A stretch of DNA of 64,000 nt from Cyclonatronum proteinivorum (GTDB lineage Bacteria; Bacteroidota; Rhodothermia; Balneolales; Cyclonatronaceae), in assembly GCF_003353065.1 (NCBI RefSeq), contig NZ_CP027806.1, positions 2,996,501 through 3,060,500 on the forward strand, read 5' to 3'. Below are positions 53,610 through 63,181 of this stretch, in pieces; the first letter of the stretch is position 1, and each line of letters starts with the position of its first letter. Position numbers and translations under genes: made by a program. Under the pieces are notes generated by a model that did not search any database, was not told where the DNA came from, and saw only the letters and a list, made by a program, of their open reading frames with translations.

Positions 53610-54458
53610 TTATGTTGACACTACGGTTTGCGCTGAAATATTTTCTCCTTCACGTTTTTTCTTTCGTTCATTAAGATAATCTTCTACTACAAGTGCGATG
53701 GGGCCAATGATGAAAAGCGCATAAAACGGTGCATATACAAATTCATTCAAACGCATAACCATCTCAAGAGCTGCAATTAGAAAAGCAACCAGCATCCTAC
53801 CGTTTCTTGTTGATACGGTTGTTTTAGGATCTGTCATCATAAACAGCACGAACAACTGATACATAGGGCCCGTCATCGGTGCGATTTCCGCAACCCAGCT
53901 ATGACCTGTATAGAGACTTCTGATGTACCCAAAAATTAAAAATGAAGCTATGTATACAAATGTGATGTGGAAGCGCTTGATTTTCCATAAAGTTGCAAGG
54001 CCTACCAGCCATATCAACAGCATAGCCCACATATTACTCCCCCACTGAATGCTAAGAACTGCCGCGCTGTCAGAAGCAATAATCAGCAGTATCACAATCC
54101 CAAAATTTGTGGGGTTCCATATATGACGCCCCTTGTACCGCAGCACATATTTGGAAGCAATAGAAATAGCAGCACACAAAGCAAAAGGCCAGAAAAAAGG
54201 CGACCTTACCAAAATACCGGCACTGATCCCGGAAACATAAGCACTTGTCATATCCCGTGTTTTTCCAAACATGGCGTAATGCAGAATGGCTTCAGTAAGA
54301 AAGCTAAACCCAATCGCCATGAGCAGTTTCTGCCAGGAATCTAAAATCCCGAATGAAAGGTGCGCCGCAAGCAGGATTCCGGTGATGAGTATGGGTCCTA
54401 TATAAACTTTTGGCAGCGAGAAAGCGGGCTGTGGTAAGGGCAGTGCAGTGTTACTCAT
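53610..54458 (-). CDS. RnfD/NqrB-like membrane protein (orphan)
   Basis: Polytopic membrane protein of 282 aa with about eight to ten hydrophobic segments. It resembles the NQR2/RnfD family: SGISAGILVRSP, HIWNPTNFGI (RnfD has a similar NPxxFG) and LFMMTDPKTTVSTRNGR (RnfD: MATDPVTS...NKGR). The covalent-FMN motif of RnfD and NqrB (Ser/Asp-Gly-Ala-Thr) is absent, and no other Rnf or Nqr subunit is nearby. It may therefore bind a flavin differently or have another role. It starts 3 bp after the stop of the 601-aa CRTAC1-type gene, so the two are surely one transcript. I infer a membrane partner for that protein. Confidence 0.72.
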   Translation of the reverse strand: MSNTALPLPQPAFSLPKVYIGPILITGILLAAHLSFGILDSWQKLLMAIGFSFLTEAILHYAMFGKTRDMTSAYVSGISAGILVRSPFFWPFALCAAISIASKYVLRYKGRHIWNPTNFGIVILLIIASDSAAVLSIQWGSNMWAMLLIWLVGLATLWKIKRFHITFVYIASFLIFGYIRSLYTGHSWVAEIAPMTGPMYQLFVLFMMTDPKTTVSTRNGRMLVAFLIAALEMVMRLNEFVYAPFYALFIIGPIALVVEDYLNERKKKREGENISAQTVVST

Positions 54459-54461
54459 AAA

Positions 54462-56267
54462 CTATAGTGCGTCAGGTTCGGTAATTTGGTGTGTAATGTT
54501 GATGGCGGGAGACGGAAGTTGCTGTACGATTCCTGAAGGCCATCGAATCTCAGCTTTATGGGTTTCAGCTGCATTTCCAATGCCGAAATGCAGCGCTCGT
54601 TGACTCTGTGAACTGAAGGCGTCTCCGGCGTGTACTGTTTTGAGATGTCGCCCCCCCTCCCATTCAATCAGAATCTGCGCGCCGATTGCGCTGCGGTTGC
54701 TAATCGTGCCGGTCAGATCAAAAGCGACCCAGTTGTGCTCCGGGTTTACATGATTCCTGTATATTTTAACCGGACCGTTCTGATTGGCTACAATCAGATC
54801 AGGAGAGCCGGTTCCGAATAAATCGGCATAGGCAACGGCACGGCTGTCGAGCTGAAGCTGCCCGCCAACAGCTGCAGCAACTTCGCGAAAGCGCCCGGCG
54901 CCGTCATTCATCCAGATTTTATTAAACTGATAGCCGGAAAAAGTCCTTCCTTCCATCGCGGGCCAGTTGTTGGCATCCATGATGATCGCCCGGTTTCCGC
55001 CAACTACCTTTGCATAATCATACCAGTAATCGGTATCCGGTGTGTCGGAAACGTAGCCGTTGGCCACATACAAATCCACAAAACCGTTGTTGTTAAGGTC
55101 CACAAAGCGTCCGCCATATCCCCACTCTCCTATCTCCACACCCATATTGCTTGCCAGGTTGCGGAACCGCAGCCGCTCACCTCCTGACCTGCGGGACGGC
55201 ACCCAAAGATTGTTACCCTGCATGAGCACGCCGGCTTCTGAAATATTGGTAACATAAATCGCCAGCTGCCCCTGATTCAGCACATCCCCAAACGATACAC
55301 TCATACCGCTTTTGGGCACAAAGCCAAGGCCTGCAGACTCCCCCGTATTCACAAATCCGGTTCCGTTGTCGTTAAGGAAGAGTTCATCCACGCCGTAATC
55401 GTTGGCGAGCATAAGGTCGGGATACCCCGATCCGTTCACATCAGCTGCCGCAGCAGCCAGGGTCCAGCGGCGCGATACAAGCAGCCCCGCCTGCTCAGCT
55501 ACTTCTACAAAAGTGCCGTCTCCCTGATTTTCAAACAAGTAGTTGCGCCCGCCATTGGTTGCATATTCGTAACTGTCCGGCATGATCCGGGTATGTTCAA
55601 GATTCCAGAAGTTTACATCTTCATGAAAATAACCACCCACAAATAAGTCAATAAAGCCATTTCCGTTGTAATCCAGCCAAACGGCGGTATTCGCATTCAT
55701 CCATCCAGCTGACGCCAGACCCGACTCCGCGGTGACATCCCTGAACCCCTGCCCGTTTTCATTCCGGAATAACTGCAGGCGTCCCCACTTGTAAATCAGC
55801 AGGTCTTCATAGCCCGAGTTGTTGAAATCTCCCCAGATTGCGCCCATGGATACGCCGTTTTCTTCATCATTCACGAAAGCAAGACCCATCTCAGCAGCGA
55901 CATCGGTGAAGGTTCCGTCGCCATTGTTTCGGTAGAGCGCGTTCGGACTGCCGAACAAGCTGTTAGTCAGGTAGAAATCCTGAAGGCCATTATTGTTGAA
56001 GTCCGCTACAGCAACCGAAGCCCCAACCGATGAAATCTGCGGCAGTATGTGTTCCAGACGCGGATCAAGGCTTGAGCGCTGATGCACAAAGTTTACCCCA
56101 ACCTGAGCGGTCACGTCTTCCAGAAAGAACCCGTAGCGCGCAATCGCGTCTTCCATGTCTTCAAATATTTCCGGACCCTTGTCCAGCTGCCGCATCGCCA
56201 TGGGCACCATCAGTAATCCAATGAAGAAAATCGTGATGAATATCTGAGCTACTTTTTGTCGGTTCAT
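54462..56267 (-). CDS. CRTAC1-family FG-GAP/UnbV protein
   Basis: A 601-aa single-propeller member of the CRTAC1 family. The N-terminal hydrophobic segment (about 8-26) has no lipobox, so it is probably an uncleaved anchor or signal peptide. FG-GAP loops include DFNNNGLQDF, DFNNSGYEDL, DYNGNGFIDL, DVNGSGYPDL and DLNNNGFVDL. The C-terminal ASPIC/UnbV domain is at about 510-590 (ISNRSAIGAQILIEWEGG, LHFGIGNAAETHKAEIRWPSG). It is 25 bp after the TPR fusion gene and 3 bp before the RnfD-like gene. Probably faces the periplasm or outside. Confidence 0.88.
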   Translation of the reverse strand: MNRQKVAQIFITIFFIGLLMVPMAMRQLDKGPEIFEDMEDAIARYGFFLEDVTAQVGVNFVHQRSSLDPRLEHILPQISSVGASVAVADFNNNGLQDFYLTNSLFGSPNALYRNNGDGTFTDVAAEMGLAFVNDEENGVSMGAIWGDFNNSGYEDLLIYKWGRLQLFRNENGQGFRDVTAESGLASAGWMNANTAVWLDYNGNGFIDLFVGGYFHEDVNFWNLEHTRIMPDSYEYATNGGRNYLFENQGDGTFVEVAEQAGLLVSRRWTLAAAAADVNGSGYPDLMLANDYGVDELFLNDNGTGFVNTGESAGLGFVPKSGMSVSFGDVLNQGQLAIYVTNISEAGVLMQGNNLWVPSRRSGGERLRFRNLASNMGVEIGEWGYGGRFVDLNNNGFVDLYVANGYVSDTPDTDYWYDYAKVVGGNRAIIMDANNWPAMEGRTFSGYQFNKIWMNDGAGRFREVAAAVGGQLQLDSRAVAYADLFGTGSPDLIVANQNGPVKIYRNHVNPEHNWVAFDLTGTISNRSAIGAQILIEWEGGRHLKTVHAGDAFSSQSQRALHFGIGNAAETHKAEIRWPSGIVQQLPSPAINITHQITEPDAL

Positions 56268-56292: not shown

Positions 56293-59200
56293 TCAGGGGG
56301 TGTTACGGCGGGTATCGGGGTTGAGCAGCAAGGCTGAGCGGAATGCCTCGGGTGTCACATAGCGGGTGTGGAAATTCACCCAGTCTTCGGGGAAGCGCTG
56401 AAACACGGGGTCATCCTGAAGGCGCCCGCCGCGGACGTACTCGTAATCAGACTGCCCGTGATACGGCAGGGGAAGCACCGTCATGCCGGCTTCGGTATTA
56501 TAGTCGCCATCTTTCACCCAGCCGACATTTACCAGTATAAAACTGCGCTGCATGCCCGTCTCGGGCTCGCCGGGCGAGCGGTACTCCAGTACGAGCTCAT
56601 CACCGGCGTTCATGATCGCATAGCGGTCGTCGGTTTCGGCCAGCAGCTCGGTCACGTCACCGAAGCGGGTGTAGTAGCCTTCGAGGTCGCGCCAGCGCTG
56701 ATTGGTGCTCGTAATTTCAGCATAATCAGGCAGATTGGGCAGCAGGCTGTCCGCGTGATTCCAGCGCGAAAAGCCGCGGTACCGGAGCTCCATGCGCTCT
56801 GCAGGCAGCTCACGCAGGGTCATTTGGGCATCCGGCATGCGCGCGGCTTTGCGGATGGCGTCCCAGTAGATTTCAGAAGTCGTGTGCAGGCGCAGTCTCC
56901 GGTCACTTTCGTCCGGAAATACGCCGGTGAGATCCATGAGAATCGATTTTTGCTTTCCGGCCGGAATCCCGTAGTTCTCGTGCAGCACCTGCCAGCCTCC
57001 GCTGCCGTCCGCAACCTCAACCATAAGGCCGCTTGGAGAATCAAAACTACTCTGACTCAGCATCAGGTTGATGGAGCTGTCCGTCGGACGCAGCCAGCCC
57101 TGCAGCACCAGCCATTCACCAAGACCCTGATCTACGCTCTCCCCGATCTCAATTTCGATATAGTGCGGCTGCACAAGTCCCTGAAATTTAGTCTTGCGGA
57201 AAGGCGCGATGTGCTCCCCGTTCGGCTGCGCAACGGTAGCACTCAGGTCGGTGCCATGCATGTCCCGAACCCCTGCAACCGGGACCGGCTCGCTAAGGAG
57301 TCGTTCGGTGAGATCGGGCGCGGGGAACACGAAACGCTCGTCAATAAAGAGCTCCGTGCCAACCGGATGATCAACCGCTATCAGGCTGAGATGGTCGAAA
57401 TAGTGTGTTTCCCAAAGCTCAGCGGTCACGCGCAAATCGTACACGCCGTCAACCGGCTGAAGCAAACCGGCAGGTATTCGCACCCGGTCTTCGGTCTGAA
57501 TCACGCCCGCTGTTTCGAGCGCATTTATGCGAAGCCCGAGCGGTGAACGCCAGATCAGGTCAGTGATAAAATGAATTTTTTCGCCGTCATTAGTGAACAG
57601 CCACGGACATGACCCCTTCAGCACCTGTTCATTGAAAATCGTTGAACCTAAGCCCAACTCTGCAAACTCAGCCTGTACGGAGCCGTTTGGCCAGATAATC
57701 CGCAGCATCTCGGCTTCTTCGTAGGTCCCCAGACCAAAATGCACAATGGGTGAGCTGATGAGTTGTTTCTGATACAGCAGGCCCGAGCGGATTTCCATCT
57801 CACCGCCAATGCCGAACGTATTAATGCGCGCATCCCCTTCGCCTCCGGAAGCCCGTGCGCGAATGGAGTAGGCGTTGTAGTTTTTGGTACCTGCATTCAT
57901 CCACTCCAAAGCTTCACCGGCGGGACCCGTGCCGACAAAATCAAGGCGCTCGTTACCATCTACATCATAAATGGACGTCACCCATCCAAAATCGGGCAGC
58001 TCCAAAGCCTGAAACGTAAAATCCGAATCGCTTAGCAGCACGGTTGTTCTTTCGGGGGTTGAAAGGACAACATCCAGACTGCCATTGTTGTCCACATCGG
58101 TCACGAACAGCGTAGTTGTCGCGGGGGTTTTGGGGGATGTGTTTCCGGGCGCATCAAACAGCCGTATGCGATCCCAGCTATCGTATCGTGACGCATACCG
58201 AAGGACTTCGACGGCACCTTCTGTGGTCGCAAACGCAATTTCGAAGTAGCCATTGGCATTGAGATCCCCGACGGCAATTGCGGCAGCATCATTCACCTGT
58301 GGGAAGCCTTCCGGAAGCATGAAGGCGTTTCCCGTGAGATTGCGGTACATCACCAGGCTGCCGTCTTCCTGAAGAAAAACGCCGTCAGCGGTACCATCCC
58401 CGTTGAAATCGGCCCAGCGGACATCCCGCACATTTCGGGTCTGCGGGAAAAGGTTCAGGCGCCCAAAGGTGCCGTCCGACTGATTGATGAGCGCAAAGAC
58501 CGGTCCGCTTTTGGGGGCAAGAATCAAGTCGAGATCACCGTCAAGGTCAACATCCGCGGGCCAGACCCCGAAGTAGCTGTCATTGCGAAGCGCCGCAGGA
58601 AGCCCGAGCGTTGCTGAAATGTCGGTGAAGCTGCGGTCGTCCTCCTGACGGTACAGCCGGAAACCATCGGTGCCCGCAAGTGCGATGTCGTTGCGGAAGT
58701 TGTAGTTGAAATCAATCTCGGCCATGACTGCAGGATGCAGCAGCGCGTCCGTTTGTCCGGGATAAGGAAGCCGGGTTTCCGCATCCAGGATCAGATGACC
58801 GTCAGCGATGTGTACGGTAAACGGGGGAAATTCTTCCAGCAGGGTCGCACCTTTGAGCAGGGAAGCCTGTGCGAAATCTTCAGGCGTTTGCGGATGGAAA
58901 CGAACCCCCATATCAGGATCCGCAACGCGGAATTCGGGACGCGGCAGCCAGATAAACTCGGTAATCAGAAATCCGACTTCGGTCGGCGGAAACTGAATCC
59001 GAAGCACATCATCCTGAAAAACCGGCGTGGGCTCAATCATGTTGCGCAGAAATACGAGCTCGAAGGTAATCTCAGAAAAGTCACCTTCTTCCGCAAACAT
59101 CAGCAGCATTTCCAGCTGTTCGGTTGCATCTTCATCCCAGCCTTGCTGCAGTTCACCAAGTTTCCGCAGGGCTTCTTCGAGCTCAGGCTGCATGCGGTTG

Positions 59201-59850
59201 CGGTTGGCGATCCGGGCCGATTCGTACCATACGGCCTGATTCCGCGGCTGCAGTACTTTAAGGGTGTCGAGCACCTCCACTATTTCGGCTGCATTTGCAG
59301 CGTCATCTTCCCGCTCCAGCTCCGTAAAAAGCGAGAACCATATGCGCGGGTTTTCGGGGGAAGCTTCCGCGGCTTCCCGAAAATAGCGGATCGCTTCTGA
59401 TACATCACCGCGGCGGCTGTAGTACATACCGGAGAGCCAGAGCACTTCAGCATTGCCGGGAGCGGCTTCACGGGCTTGCTCCATGCGGGTGCCGGCCAGG
59501 TCGAAATTACCCTGCCGCATAGCCATTACGCCCAGATTGGCCCAGGCAGCAGCTTCCTGCGGCCAGGCCCTCGCAACATCATTCATTTTATTGAAGGCGA
59601 AGCGGGCTTCGTCGGTTTGCGCAGCGGCCAGACTCACAAAGAAGTCGGAGACCGCACGCAGATAGGCGTCGGATTCAGCCACGGGCGGTTCCGGCTCGGA
59701 TGTCGAACAGGCCACAGCCAGCATAAGTGCAGTTAAGACAGTAATTCCGAATCGTAGCAGTTTACTCAACAGGAAAAGGATTTTGGTTTGAAAAATGGAT
59801 TTCTTTTGAAAAAGATCAGGGCTTGAGATCGAAGAGCAGGGGGCGGTCAT
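56293..59850 (-). CDS. TPR-propeller-UnbV lipoprotein with large C-terminal domain
   Basis: A 1,185-aa protein. From the first ATG the lipobox LAVAC has Cys48, and a TTG at 59769 would give a shorter, more normal signal peptide (SKLLRFGITVLTALMLAVAC) and remove the overlap with the preceding gene. TPR-like helices span about 55-250 (AWANLGVMAMRQGNFDLA, EAIRYFREAAEASPENPRIW). FG-GAP loops follow at about 400-660 (DVDLDGDLDL, DFNGDGTADG, DVDNNGSLDV), then UnbV at about 640-740 (INTFGIGGEMEIRSG, LRIIWPNGSV). A C-terminal region of about 440 residues (DGVYDLRVTAELWETHYFDH, ILVNVGWVKDGDYNT) belongs to no domain I know. Confidence 0.8.
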   Translation of the reverse strand: MTAPCSSISSPDLFQKKSIFQTKILFLLSKLLRFGITVLTALMLAVACSTSEPEPPVAESDAYLRAVSDFFVSLAAAQTDEARFAFNKMNDVARAWPQEAAAWANLGVMAMRQGNFDLAGTRMEQAREAAPGNAEVLWLSGMYYSRRGDVSEAIRYFREAAEASPENPRIWFSLFTELEREDDAANAAEIVEVLDTLKVLQPRNQAVWYESARIANRNRMQPELEEALRKLGELQQGWDEDATEQLEMLLMFAEEGDFSEITFELVFLRNMIEPTPVFQDDVLRIQFPPTEVGFLITEFIWLPRPEFRVADPDMGVRFHPQTPEDFAQASLLKGATLLEEFPPFTVHIADGHLILDAETRLPYPGQTDALLHPAVMAEIDFNYNFRNDIALAGTDGFRLYRQEDDRSFTDISATLGLPAALRNDSYFGVWPADVDLDGDLDLILAPKSGPVFALINQSDGTFGRLNLFPQTRNVRDVRWADFNGDGTADGVFLQEDGSLVMYRNLTGNAFMLPEGFPQVNDAAAIAVGDLNANGYFEIAFATTEGAVEVLRYASRYDSWDRIRLFDAPGNTSPKTPATTTLFVTDVDNNGSLDVVLSTPERTTVLLSDSDFTFQALELPDFGWVTSIYDVDGNERLDFVGTGPAGEALEWMNAGTKNYNAYSIRARASGGEGDARINTFGIGGEMEIRSGLLYQKQLISSPIVHFGLGTYEEAEMLRIIWPNGSVQAEFAELGLGSTIFNEQVLKGSCPWLFTNDGEKIHFITDLIWRSPLGLRINALETAGVIQTEDRVRIPAGLLQPVDGVYDLRVTAELWETHYFDHLSLIAVDHPVGTELFIDERFVFPAPDLTERLLSEPVPVAGVRDMHGTDLSATVAQPNGEHIAPFRKTKFQGLVQPHYIEIEIGESVDQGLGEWLVLQGWLRPTDSSINLMLSQSSFDSPSGLMVEVADGSGGWQVLHENYGIPAGKQKSILMDLTGVFPDESDRRLRLHTTSEIYWDAIRKAARMPDAQMTLRELPAERMELRYRGFSRWNHADSLLPNLPDYAEITSTNQRWRDLEGYYTRFGDVTELLAETDDRYAIMNAGDELVLEYRSPGEPETGMQRSFILVNVGWVKDGDYNTEAGMTVLPLPYHGQSDYEYVRGGRLQDDPVFQRFPEDWVNFHTRYVTPEAFRSALLLNPDTRRNTP

Positions 59851-62800
59851 TGTTCCGGGCTGTGATGATGCGGGTGCGGTTACCGGGAACCTGAAGGCTG
59901 CGGATGTGCCGCGTTTCGCCCCGAACGATGAAGCCGCTATCCTGCAGCTCCAGCACTTCGAATCCCTTTTCGGCGGACCAGCTCAGGTGCAGCCCAACAC
60001 CGGCGCCCTGCTTGCCGCCGGTTCCGGGCTTCACGGCGTGCAGATTGCCGCCCAGCAGCAAATGCGGCCTGCCGGTCGCGTCGTGCCAAACTTCGCTGCT
60101 CATCAGCGGGAAAGCCTGCGCCTCTATGGGAAAGGCCTGCCAGTTAAACTGCCCGTTGCCGTCATTGAGCCAGACGCCGGAGTGCAGGGTACTGACCGTG
60201 AAGCGGTCGGCCTGCTCAACCTGTTCACGACCCAAAAGCTGAAACAGGTTACGCGTCGAAAAATCGCGGTAGCTTCGTACCCGCTGATTCAGGAAAGAAA
60301 ACTCCAGCAAAAGCTCTTCGAGGCGGTCGAAGGGATAGAGGGAATTGTTCCGTTCAATCACCATGATCGCCGATTCGCGACCATCATCCCCAAACTTGTT
60401 GATCAGCAGATGCAGCGGACTTTCGGGGGAGGCTTCCATACGGCTGTTGGTGCCAAAATTACCCAGCAGGAGGTCCGGCGCGCCGTTTCCGGTGAGGTCA
60501 GCTACCTGCACATGCTGCCAGAGACCGCCCCATGCGGCAATCCCCAGGTCCGCTGTAATGTCCGAAAACCGGCCATCCCGAACGGCGAGCACTTTCACCG
60601 GCATCCACTCCCCGGTAATGATGAGCTCCGGTTTTCCGTCTCCGGTGAGGTCCGCCCAAACTGCGTCGGTAACCATGCCGATGTCGGGAAGCTCCGGATA
60701 CCAGCTGTCGGTCACATTGCTGAAATGTCCGGTGCCGTCGTTGGCAAACAGGTAGCTGCCCGGCGACCTGCCGTAAGCCCACGGCACCGACCGGCCGCCA
60801 ATGAACAAATCCAATGCCCCGTTTCCGGTGAAATCCGCTGCCCGAACCACGGCTCCGTTCAGGAACATAGCCGGAAGCCGCTCCGGCTCATAGGTGAAGC
60901 GCCCGTTGCCCTGATTGATATAGAGGCGGTCCTTCAGGGCTTCTTCCGTATCCACAAACTGACCGCCTCCGGTCATCACATATAAATCCAGCAGCCCGTT
61001 TCCGGTCGCGTCAAAAAAGAGCGCGTCAACTTCTTCGCCAACGGCATGCTGTGCAAAGAGTTCATTCTGAGAAGCAACAAAAGTCCCGTTGGATTGCTGC
61101 AAAAAAAGACGACCGGGCTGACGAAAAGCGCCACCAAAGTAAAGGTCGTCGAGGCCGTTCCCGGTTACATCACCAACCGCGAGGGCCGGACCCTGTGTTG
61201 AAAGCTTGTAGGGCATGAGCGGTTCACGGTTGAAGTCATCGAACCGGTTTTCCTGATGTACAAAGTCAGGGTGCAAAGACTGCGGCGCGGGATGCAGTGT
61301 GGCATTGTCGAAACTGCGATGCAGCCGGGTAAAGTCGAATTGGCCGGAGGCTTCATCCTGACGCAGCGTAATATGCTGATTGGCCGATACGTCCCTACGA
61401 ACTTCATAGGTCCAGTCCGGCCAGATGACCAGCAACGAGTCAATCTCCGTGAGCGCTCCCAGGCCAAAGTGCAGGCGGTGATCGACCGAGCTTTGGAAGC
61501 CGCGGGTCGGCATTTGCTCCTGATAGAATACCTGACCGTCGCCGTATAAGATCACTTTACTACCGAGTCCGCCCGTATTCGGTGAGCGTCCGTCGAGGCT
61601 CACCCGCAGAAAATGTGCGGCGCTGTCCAATTCTGTCGTGTTCCGATAGATTCGGGTTGGTTCGTTGATGTTACTCACCACAAGATCAAGGCGACCGCTG
61701 TTGTTGAGGTCGGCCCAGGCTGCCCCGTTGGAAACTACATCATGTCCGAAGCCCCATGCACGGCTGACATCTTCGAACTGAAGACCGCCAAGATTCCGGT
61801 ACATGTAATTGGGTACCACAACCGACGGCATGAGATTGATCGCTTCAAATTCCCGCTGTGCGGTTTCTTCTTCAGTGGCTTGCTGACGTATCACCCGCAG
61901 CCGCGCCACAAAATCGAGGTCGTTCGGGCGATGCGGCATGCCGTTGGTGACGAACACGTCCTTAAAACCGCTGTTGTCAAAATCAGCCATCAGGGCCGCC
62001 CAGCTCCACTCGGTACGCGCAAGACCAAGCGAAAACGCCATCTCGCTAAAAACCGGCATTCCGTCGCGGTCATTGCCGCGGTTGATGTGCAGGGTGTTGC
62101 GCGCATTCTTGGCACCGAAGCCGAACTCGCGCTTGGTTTGCGCAATCGGCCAGATGTCGGGGCCGCCGGAGGTCATGTACACTTCGTATTCTTCCGACAT
62201 CATATCGAGGGAGAACACATCCACAAAGCCGTTGTTGGTGAGGTCCGCAATGTCGTTGCCCATGCTCGACCGGCTTGTGTGCGAAAATGCCGAGTACAGC
62301 ATTTCGGTGAAGGTGCCGTCGCCGTTGTTGATGTAGAGGTAGTCATCTTCGTGAAAATCGTTGCCGACGTAAATATCCGGCCATCCATTCAGGTTGATGT
62401 CCGTTACGGCAACCCCCAGGCCGTAGCCCAAGGCGCTACTGATAATTCCGGCTTCCTGCGAAACATCCGTGAAACGGTCGCCATCGTTGCGGAAGAGGCG
62501 GTCACCGGCTTTGGGATCAAACACCTGCCGCAGCCGTTCGGCCTGACCATACGTACGGTCGCTGTGGAAAGAGTGATTGAGCAGGAACATATCGAGGCGG
62601 CCGTTGCGGTTGTAATCGAAGAAAATGGCCTGCGTGGAATACCCTTCAAAATCCAGCCCGAAATCGGCGGCCATTTCAGTGAAGGTCATATCGCCATTGT
62701 TGATGAACAGCTGATTGCGGCCGGTCTTCACCAGATAGTTGGAGTGACTCACATAAATATCGAGATAGCCGTTGCCGGTAATGTCGGCCATCGTAACCCC

Positions 62801-63181
62801 GGTTGACCACGAGCCTTCCTGATGGATGATACCCGCCTGTTCCGTAACGTCTTCAAAGCGGTAATCGCCCAGATTCATAAACAGCCGGTTCGGGCCGTCG
62901 TTGGCGGTGAGAAATATGTCGGGCAGACCGTTGTTGTTCAGGTCACCAATAGCAACTCCGCCGCCATCATAAAAATAGAGGTAGTTGAGGATGTGAAATT
63001 CGGGCGTGTTTTCAACCGTATTGGTGAAGTCAAGCTGTGTGTAACCCGGATCGAGGCGTTCAAACCTGAAGTCTTCCGACTCTCTCTCCTTCGCACAAGA
63101 TAACAGAACGACTGAAAGCGCTGCCAGAAACAGGCAGTTAAAAGAAATACTAAGATTGGTTGAATGTGATGAATAGTTCAT
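59816..63181 (-). CDS. Giant FG-GAP/VCBS propeller lipoprotein with ASPIC/UnbV domain (3)
   Basis: First gene of the cluster: a 1,121-aa lipoprotein, lipobox VLLSC (Cys29). It has the same plan as the two at 40.7 and 44.8 kb: first propeller about 55-510 (DLNNNGLPDI, DITGNGYLDI, DYNRNGRLDM, DINLNGWPDI), UnbV at about 520-605 (DGRSPNTGGLGSKVILYGDG, ALTEIDSLLVIWPDW), and second propeller about 640-1,115 (DVTGNGLDDL, DATGNGLLDL, DLTGNGAPDL). Its last 35 bp overlap the longest frame of the next gene. Promoter elements should be in the 63182-63497 spacer. Confidence 0.88.
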   Translation of the reverse strand: MNYSSHSTNLSISFNCLFLAALSVVLLSCAKERESEDFRFERLDPGYTQLDFTNTVENTPEFHILNYLYFYDGGGVAIGDLNNNGLPDIFLTANDGPNRLFMNLGDYRFEDVTEQAGIIHQEGSWSTGVTMADITGNGYLDIYVSHSNYLVKTGRNQLFINNGDMTFTEMAADFGLDFEGYSTQAIFFDYNRNGRLDMFLLNHSFHSDRTYGQAERLRQVFDPKAGDRLFRNDGDRFTDVSQEAGIISSALGYGLGVAVTDINLNGWPDIYVGNDFHEDDYLYINNGDGTFTEMLYSAFSHTSRSSMGNDIADLTNNGFVDVFSLDMMSEEYEVYMTSGGPDIWPIAQTKREFGFGAKNARNTLHINRGNDRDGMPVFSEMAFSLGLARTEWSWAALMADFDNSGFKDVFVTNGMPHRPNDLDFVARLRVIRQQATEEETAQREFEAINLMPSVVVPNYMYRNLGGLQFEDVSRAWGFGHDVVSNGAAWADLNNSGRLDLVVSNINEPTRIYRNTTELDSAAHFLRVSLDGRSPNTGGLGSKVILYGDGQVFYQEQMPTRGFQSSVDHRLHFGLGALTEIDSLLVIWPDWTYEVRRDVSANQHITLRQDEASGQFDFTRLHRSFDNATLHPAPQSLHPDFVHQENRFDDFNREPLMPYKLSTQGPALAVGDVTGNGLDDLYFGGAFRQPGRLFLQQSNGTFVASQNELFAQHAVGEEVDALFFDATGNGLLDLYVMTGGGQFVDTEEALKDRLYINQGNGRFTYEPERLPAMFLNGAVVRAADFTGNGALDLFIGGRSVPWAYGRSPGSYLFANDGTGHFSNVTDSWYPELPDIGMVTDAVWADLTGDGKPELIITGEWMPVKVLAVRDGRFSDITADLGIAAWGGLWQHVQVADLTGNGAPDLLLGNFGTNSRMEASPESPLHLLINKFGDDGRESAIMVIERNNSLYPFDRLEELLLEFSFLNQRVRSYRDFSTRNLFQLLGREQVEQADRFTVSTLHSGVWLNDGNGQFNWQAFPIEAQAFPLMSSEVWHDATGRPHLLLGGNLHAVKPGTGGKQGAGVGLHLSWSAEKGFEVLELQDSGFIVRGETRHIRSLQVPGNRTRIITARNNDRPLLFDLKP

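Follow-up and report, generated by a model that had tools for sequence, protein, structure and literature searches.

An orphan RnfD/NqrB-fold protein forms a two-gene unit with an exported CRTAC1-type propeller and may act as a membrane flavin relay

Introduction

What does a protein with the fold of RnfD and NqrB, the membrane subunits of the Rnf and Nqr pumps, do when it stands alone, next to the gene for an exported propeller protein? The question is raised by the last two genes of a minus-strand run in Cyclonatronum proteinivorum. We analyzed a stretch of 64,000 nucleotides from this bacterium (contig NZ_CP027806.1, positions 2,996,501 to 3,060,500), which we will call the window; coordinates without another label are positions in it. 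In order from 5' to 3', the run consists of:

59816-63181, minus strand: C1121, a large CRTAC1-type protein of 1121 amino acids, first of the run (open reading frame and profile matches)
56293-59850, minus strand: T1185, a protein of 1185 amino acids with TPR, FG-GAP and partial ASPIC matches (open reading frame and profile matches)
54462-56267, minus strand: C601, a CRTAC1/UnbV-type propeller of 601 amino acids with an N-terminal hydrophobic helix, FG-GAP repeats and an ASPIC/UnbV domain (PF13517, PF07593)
53610-54458, minus strand: RnfD/NqrB-fold membrane protein of 282 amino acids (UnbU-type, H-signature family; PF03116 and AlphaFold2 model)

The first two genes overlap by 35 bp. As the initial annotation of this DNA had pointed out, the RnfD-like gene starts just 3 bp after the stop of C601. 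The run ends (3') at 53610 and is followed, after a gap of 547 bp, by SusC- and SusD-like genes. Of the seven ASPIC matches in the genome, five fall within 40679-63181, where they surround a SusC/SusD pair.

Results

Family, fold and genome content of the membrane protein

The initial annotation described the 282-residue protein as an orphan relative of RnfD with NPTNFG- and TDPKT-like segments, and both segments are indeed present. The profile search that it had proposed places the protein in the RnfD family, and not in a different membrane family: the score with PF03116 (NQR2_RnfD_RnfE) is 33.7 bits, above the cut-off of 27.7. The NCBIfam model for rnfD (TIGR01946) gave 26.7 bits, far below its cut-off of 207.05. 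In a structural comparison of the AlphaFold2 model (mean pLDDT 85), the best match in the PDB was RnfD (8rbq_D, Z 24.1), with NqrB at Z of about 22 and RnfD/NqrB structures overall at Z 21-24. The next group, at Z of about 11-12.5, comprises the Amt, Rh and urea transporters (a likeness of fold only).

The genome is complete, as a single contig of 4,294,247 bases, and the 282-residue protein is the only PF03116 protein that it encodes. We found no RnfA/E-NqrD/E protein (PF02508) in this genome, using a search that was positive in 4 of 14 control genomes, and no FMN-attaching ApbE (PF02424), using a search that was positive in 7 of the 14. (A search for DUF1702 gave no match either in this genome or in any control genome.) The initial annotation had raised the prospect of an rnf operon elsewhere that lacks its own rnfD, but the rest of the genome contains no RnfA/E. 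Together, these results are strong evidence that the protein has the RnfD/NqrB fold but stands alone, as a single orphan subunit.

Cofactor sites and a family signature

In the Rnf and Nqr pumps, the FMN of RnfD/NqrB exchanges electrons with RnfG/NqrC, and the second half of the electron path runs through the riboflavin pocket of NqrB. The threonine that carries the covalent FMN sits in the linker that joins the two five-helix halves of the protein (Nat Commun 2022, PMC9588780). Hau et al. 2023 (PMC10643135) describe T162, N200, N203, and D346 as the residues whose side chains hold the riboflavin in NqrB from Vibrio cholerae, and changing D346 to alanine cuts activity. We mapped these contacts onto the 282-residue protein via a PDB profile alignment and scored their conservation in a 66-row alignment of its relatives. 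The positions of interest are:

Ser76, codon 54231-54233, minus strand: equivalent of the Thr162 hydroxyl of NqrB (S in 44 and T in 22 of the 66 rows)
His112, codon 54123-54125, minus strand: position of NqrB Asn200, the family hallmark (H in 66/66 rows)
Asn115, codon 54114-54116, minus strand: equivalent of NqrB Asn203 (N in 66/66 rows)
Arg180, codon 53919-53921, minus strand: invariant in the H-signature family; F, M or L in true RnfD/NqrB (alignments)
Asp210, codon 53829-53831, minus strand: equivalent of NqrB Asp346 (D in 66/66 rows)

Three of the four side-chain contacts to riboflavin are retained in this predicted pocket, and the fourth has histidine for asparagine. At the Asn200 position, asparagine is found in all 26 true RnfD/NqrB proteins that we took from the phylum sample described below, and histidine in all 20 distant relatives of the 282-residue protein. 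A signature of S/T76-K103-H112-N115-R180-D210, along with a short linker, is found in 66 of 66 rows, and the 20 distant rows agree with it wherever they have letters. The Asn-to-His swap, which affects a ribityl contact, could abolish or retune the binding of riboflavin, and the ligand may differ.

The covalent FMN site is another matter. It had been reported as missing from the 282-residue protein, and we found no S/T/D-G-A-T at that site. (TGAT does occur in one of the 66 rows, at a place other than the FMN site.) Furthermore, about 95 residues span the NP and TD motifs in the H-signature family; in the 20 true RnfD/NqrB proteins in which this span could be measured it is 130-155, so that of the family is shorter by roughly 35-60 residues. 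(The largest span in the family, an outlier of 122 in L035/L016, we read as our pattern catching an earlier H..NP.) This difference implies that the FMN site was lost as a block and not by mutation. At the equivalent of E157, the acid in the Na+ path of NqrB, 61 of 66 rows have A, S, or T and none of the 66 has an acidic residue, so the known ion path is not retained.

The propeller partner and the specificity of the pairing

C601 has the FG-GAP propeller and the ASPIC/UnbV domain by which CRTAC1/UnbV-type proteins are recognized, and its AlphaFold2 model (pLDDT 91.4) matches murine CRTAC1 (9etn_A) with Z of 41.0 over 460 residues. We found no redox cofactor motif in this CRTAC1 partner, and we know of none.

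A gene-neighborhood survey for RnfD-like plus CRTAC1 pairs, which had been suggested along with the initial annotation, shows that the two genes travel together. Among the best 80 named loci (from at least 536 relatives), 75 have an ortholog of C601 immediately upstream and on the same strand. Of the other five, four are at contig ends, which leaves L052 as the one real exception without an adjoining partner. A homolog of T1185 is directly upstream of the pair, on the same strand, at 60 of the 75 loci with a called partner gene (window included). One partner gene (G482:C23:157738-159510) contains a single in-frame TGA.

The pairing also holds at the level of whole genomes. In a sample of 296 genomes from the window's phylum, 14 of the 20 matches to the RnfD-like protein are strong (1e-84 or better); the remaining six belong to the DUF2330 or enediyne type or resemble true NqrB. 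The strong matches are in 14 genomes, and the partner (E of 1e-100 or better) is found in the identical 14. The two genes adjoin in 12 of these and are on separate contigs in G115 and G167; in G167, the RnfD-like gene is at a contig end. We then have a second sample of 247 genomes from Acidobacteriota (the phylum of the Granulicella locus L069), in which a strong RnfD-like gene occurs in 13 genomes. A partner with at least 50% identity is present in these 13 as well, and by coordinates the pair is adjacent in 13 of 13. With our preset threshold of 1e-100, the partner search had returned 20 of the 247 genomes, and the split into 13 (at least 50% identity) and 7 (39-43% identity) was made post hoc, at the gap between them. 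The 7 genomes with lower-identity CRTAC1 proteins lack a strong RnfD-like gene, and two of them (G470 and G539) carry a distant one.

Adjacency by chance is rejected by these counts (75 of 80 loci, identical sets of 14 of 296 and 13 of 247 genomes) and by the single partner type in each genome. The last point also rejects the idea that any CRTAC1 protein will do: six genomes have from 2 to 14 CRTAC1 matches at 1e-20, and each has exactly one of the partner type (2e-186 or better, with the next best at 2e-61). Thus, the RnfD-like protein and one specific CRTAC1/UnbV-type exported propeller form a fixed two-gene unit, and the evidence for this is strong.

Enediyne cassettes

The same combination is already known, from annotations, within enediyne cassettes, where we take the CRTAC1-type protein to be UnbV/E4 and the RnfD-like protein to be UnbU/E5. 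For instance, the annotations of the plasmid of Streptomyces globisporus C-1027 include an "RnfABCDGE type electron transport complex subunit D" and a "CRTAC1 family protein." Our plasmid searches gave 50 and 46 matching records, and we inspected five regions (C-1027, S. goshikiensis, Serratia, Sinorhizobium, and Metabacillus). Four of the five (all except Metabacillus) have the order DUF1702, CRTAC1/VCBS, RnfD-like. Serratia has a regulator gene between DUF1702 and CRTAC1/VCBS, and other ketosynthase genes are close by; in the other three, an enediyne-type PKS comes next. The Sinorhizobium region (L042:6955-17071, from S. meliloti T073 pSymA) is an unannotated enediyne-type cassette with DUF1702, UnbV-like, RnfD-like, PKSE-like, and small proteins. 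One genome of the phylum sample (L037:2542-12704) has DUF1702, CRTAC1, RnfD-like, and a PKS with KS-AT-ACP-KR-DH-thioesterase domains in a row; the thioesterase-like domain is at the C-terminus of the PKS.

We found no PKS-like gene in the window's run of 40679-63181, so the neighboring iterative PKS that marks an enediyne cassette is absent here. As far as we know, the chemistry of the membrane protein and the CRTAC1 protein in enediyne cassettes has not been explained. The passages of enediyne papers that we consulted make no statement about the function of the pair, and in the passages that we consulted on UnbV it appears only in mentions of the domain.

Other partners and neighboring genes

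More distant relatives of the RnfD-like protein have other partners. Among 12 distant regions from Acidobacteriota (L165-L176), nine have DUF2330 adjoining or fused and one is enediyne-type; of the last two, one is close to the end of its contig and the other shows neither partner. Outside of the Acidobacteriota sample, L035 has DUF2330 next to the RnfD-like gene. (DUF2330 is a family of unknown function.) Natural fusions of RnfD-like and DUF2330 domains are found in L167, L168, and L172 and, outside of this sample, at L036:7403-9724. In the Metabacillus relative, the RnfD-like gene comes after, and overlaps with, the gene for an AhpC/TSA (thioredoxin-like) protein. At L170:4303-7792, the gene before the RnfD-like gene encodes a protein with matches to propellers of the kelch and PQQ types, which may be one more propeller partner.

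Clustering of the neighbors of the pair identified a NapH-like membrane protein at 12 of 81 loci. All 12 have the 4Fe-4S motif CTFC[LM]DC..ACP, and in 11 of the 12 the gene is upstream and in the same direction. At L034, the pair is flanked by a multiheme cytochrome, an ETF-QO-like protein, and an acyl-CoA dehydrogenase. The window's own run contains no NapH-like or cytochrome gene, and the genes downstream of it are SusC/SusD-like. An ABC-transporter permease cluster is found at 12 of 81 loci. Other neighbors, mainly in Acidobacteriota and usually on the opposite strand, are flavin halogenase/QhpG-like (18 of 81 loci), TIGR01210-like radical-SAM (14 of 81), and asparagine-synthase-like proteins (13 of 81). 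These look like a biosynthetic cluster. Example loci are:

L113:12635-14218: locus with halogenase/radical-SAM/asparagine-synthase-like neighbors
L115:14256-15227: locus with such neighbors
L110:11708-13039: locus with such neighbors

A literature search, which covered few subscription journals, returned no paper on the pair and none naming DUF2330.

Phylogeny

For a tree of RnfD-like proteins, we used every third row of the 66-row alignment, the distant relatives, and the 26 true RnfD/NqrB proteins. The proteins with the histidine form one clade apart from the true RnfD/NqrB (support 100/100). Within it, the clades track the type of partner: the CRTAC1-paired proteins (22 rows) and the enediyne proteins (6 rows) are each supported at 100/100, and the DUF2330-type proteins (13 rows) at 95/55. 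The CRTAC1-paired and enediyne clades join at 93/73, with a warning for long branches. In an unrooted tree of CRTAC1 proteins, 15 of the partner type and 6 of the UnbV type are on one side and 30 others, most of which are second copies from the same loci, are on the other (100/99). Both trees are compatible with a single ancestral pair as the origin of the enediyne pairs and the stand-alone pairs.

Discussion

A possible flavin relay and its alternatives

We propose that the 282-residue protein is a one-subunit membrane flavin relay that serves the exported propeller, and that it is neither an ion pump nor a mere anchor. We put the probability of this reading at about one half. In this proposal, an ancestral RnfD/NqrB protein would have lost the linker for covalent FMN and the partner subunits of the pump and would have kept the non-covalent riboflavin pocket, with histidine in place of asparagine. 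The membrane subunit would bind a flavin and hand electrons to the propeller, or take them from it, with the quinone pool or a membrane ferredoxin at the other end. The propeller, at the outer face of the cytoplasmic membrane, would perform or carry redox chemistry on a putative substrate, and the E4/E5 pair of enediyne cassettes would be the same module applied to a polyketide. Given that the pocket is kept, the FMN is dropped, and there is a single exported partner, a short electron relay is the simplest way for the pair to work.

One alternative is that the protein is a channel for solutes or ions. In the manner of Amt or the urea transporters, it would carry a small substrate (such as a small organic acid or an anion) toward the propeller or away from it, and no redox chemistry would be involved. 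Those transporters and Rh are the next structural neighbors of our model, ABC-transporter genes are common near the pair, and the covalent FMN site is absent. Furthermore, the invariant polar residues K103, H112, N115, N118, and R180 could line a pore. However, three residues that are conserved in 66 of 66 rows fall at the riboflavin contacts of NqrB, the acid of the ion path is gone from every row, and neighboring genes encode, among others, a membrane protein of the iron-sulfur kind and one that is thioredoxin-like. We therefore consider a channel unlikely.

Next is the suggestion from the initial annotation that the protein anchors the propeller, to which we add that it might be an assembly factor; in either case, it would have no cofactor and transport nothing. 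This would fit with the near-perfect pairing and the overlapping genes, and the fusions to DUF2330 illustrate that a different exported partner can be attached to this domain. On the other hand, the propeller has a hydrophobic helix of its own at its N-terminus, an anchor has no need for a multi-helix, transporter-like fold, and the ancestral cofactor pocket is among the invariant residues. We view a pure anchor or assembly factor as improbable too. A redox role is favored over anchoring alone by the largely intact pocket and by the redox genes next to relatives. The initial annotation had argued for a repurposed subunit "rather than a redox pump": its tie to the propeller and its exclusion from the pumps have held up, but the pocket and the redox neighbors speak against taking redox chemistry out of the picture.

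Finally, the protein might be a genuine Rnf or Nqr subunit that has degenerated, with the other genes of the pump elsewhere. This would account for the PF03116 score above the cut-off, but we reject it as extremely improbable because TIGR01946 scores far below its cut-off, the FMN site is gone, our searches of the genome gave no PF02508, ApbE, or second PF03116 protein, and the family forms a clade apart from the 26 true RnfD/NqrB proteins with support of 100/100.

A more ambitious version of the flavin relay proposal would be that RnfD-fold, one-subunit transmembrane relays without a covalent flavin are a widespread and unrecognized class that serves exported CRTAC1-type propellers, DUF2330, and a thioredoxin-like protein; that the propeller is a redox enzyme; and that the polyene-to-polyyne or iodination chemistry of enediynes was recruited from such an envelope system. 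We offer this extension as speculation that is rather less likely to be right than wrong.

Significance and comparison with known systems

To our knowledge, the following are new: the family signature, a pocket that is retained although the linker is deleted, a pairing that is near-perfect in several phyla, the other partners, and the suggested common ancestry with the enediyne pairs. The pair is a common module in Balneolota, Acidobacteriota, Planctomycetota, and other groups, and a PKS is absent from most of the loci that we inspected. When "RnfABCDGE subunit D" is annotated beside genes for CRTAC1, DUF2330, or redoxin proteins, it does not indicate an Rnf complex. The largely retained riboflavin site leads to a testable idea for both the enediyne pairs and the stand-alone pairs: the membrane protein would contain a flavin and would transfer electrons to the propeller.

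Compared to RnfD and NqrB of the pumps, the 282-residue protein has the same fold, the TDP and NP motifs, and three of the four side-chain contacts to riboflavin. It differs in its deleted FMN linker, the histidine in place of Asn200, the new Arg180, its separate clade, and a genome without RnfA/E or ApbE. C601 shares the propeller fold of vertebrate CRTAC1 (cartilage acidic protein 1; Z 41 over 460 residues) but has an N-terminal hydrophobic helix and a fixed pairing with a membrane protein. The UnbU/UnbV pairs of enediyne cassettes have the same gene order (CRTAC1 and then RnfD-like), and their RnfD-like protein has the same S/T-K-H-N-N-R-D signature; in contrast to the window's pair, they adjoin an enediyne PKS, and identity between the two is 26-30%.

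There is also a parallel with the flavinylation-associated "Nqr/Rnf-like" two-subunit complexes (mSystems 2024, PMC11334425). These lack the flavinylated threonine, a non-covalent flavin has been proposed for them, and, like the pair in the window, they combine an RnfD-like membrane domain with one extracytosolic subunit. As described there, the partner is an FMN-domain protein of the NqrC/RnfG type, and the membrane protein has a C-terminal NAD-binding domain. In the family that we describe, the partner is instead a CRTAC1 propeller (or DUF2330), and we found no ApbE in the window's genome.
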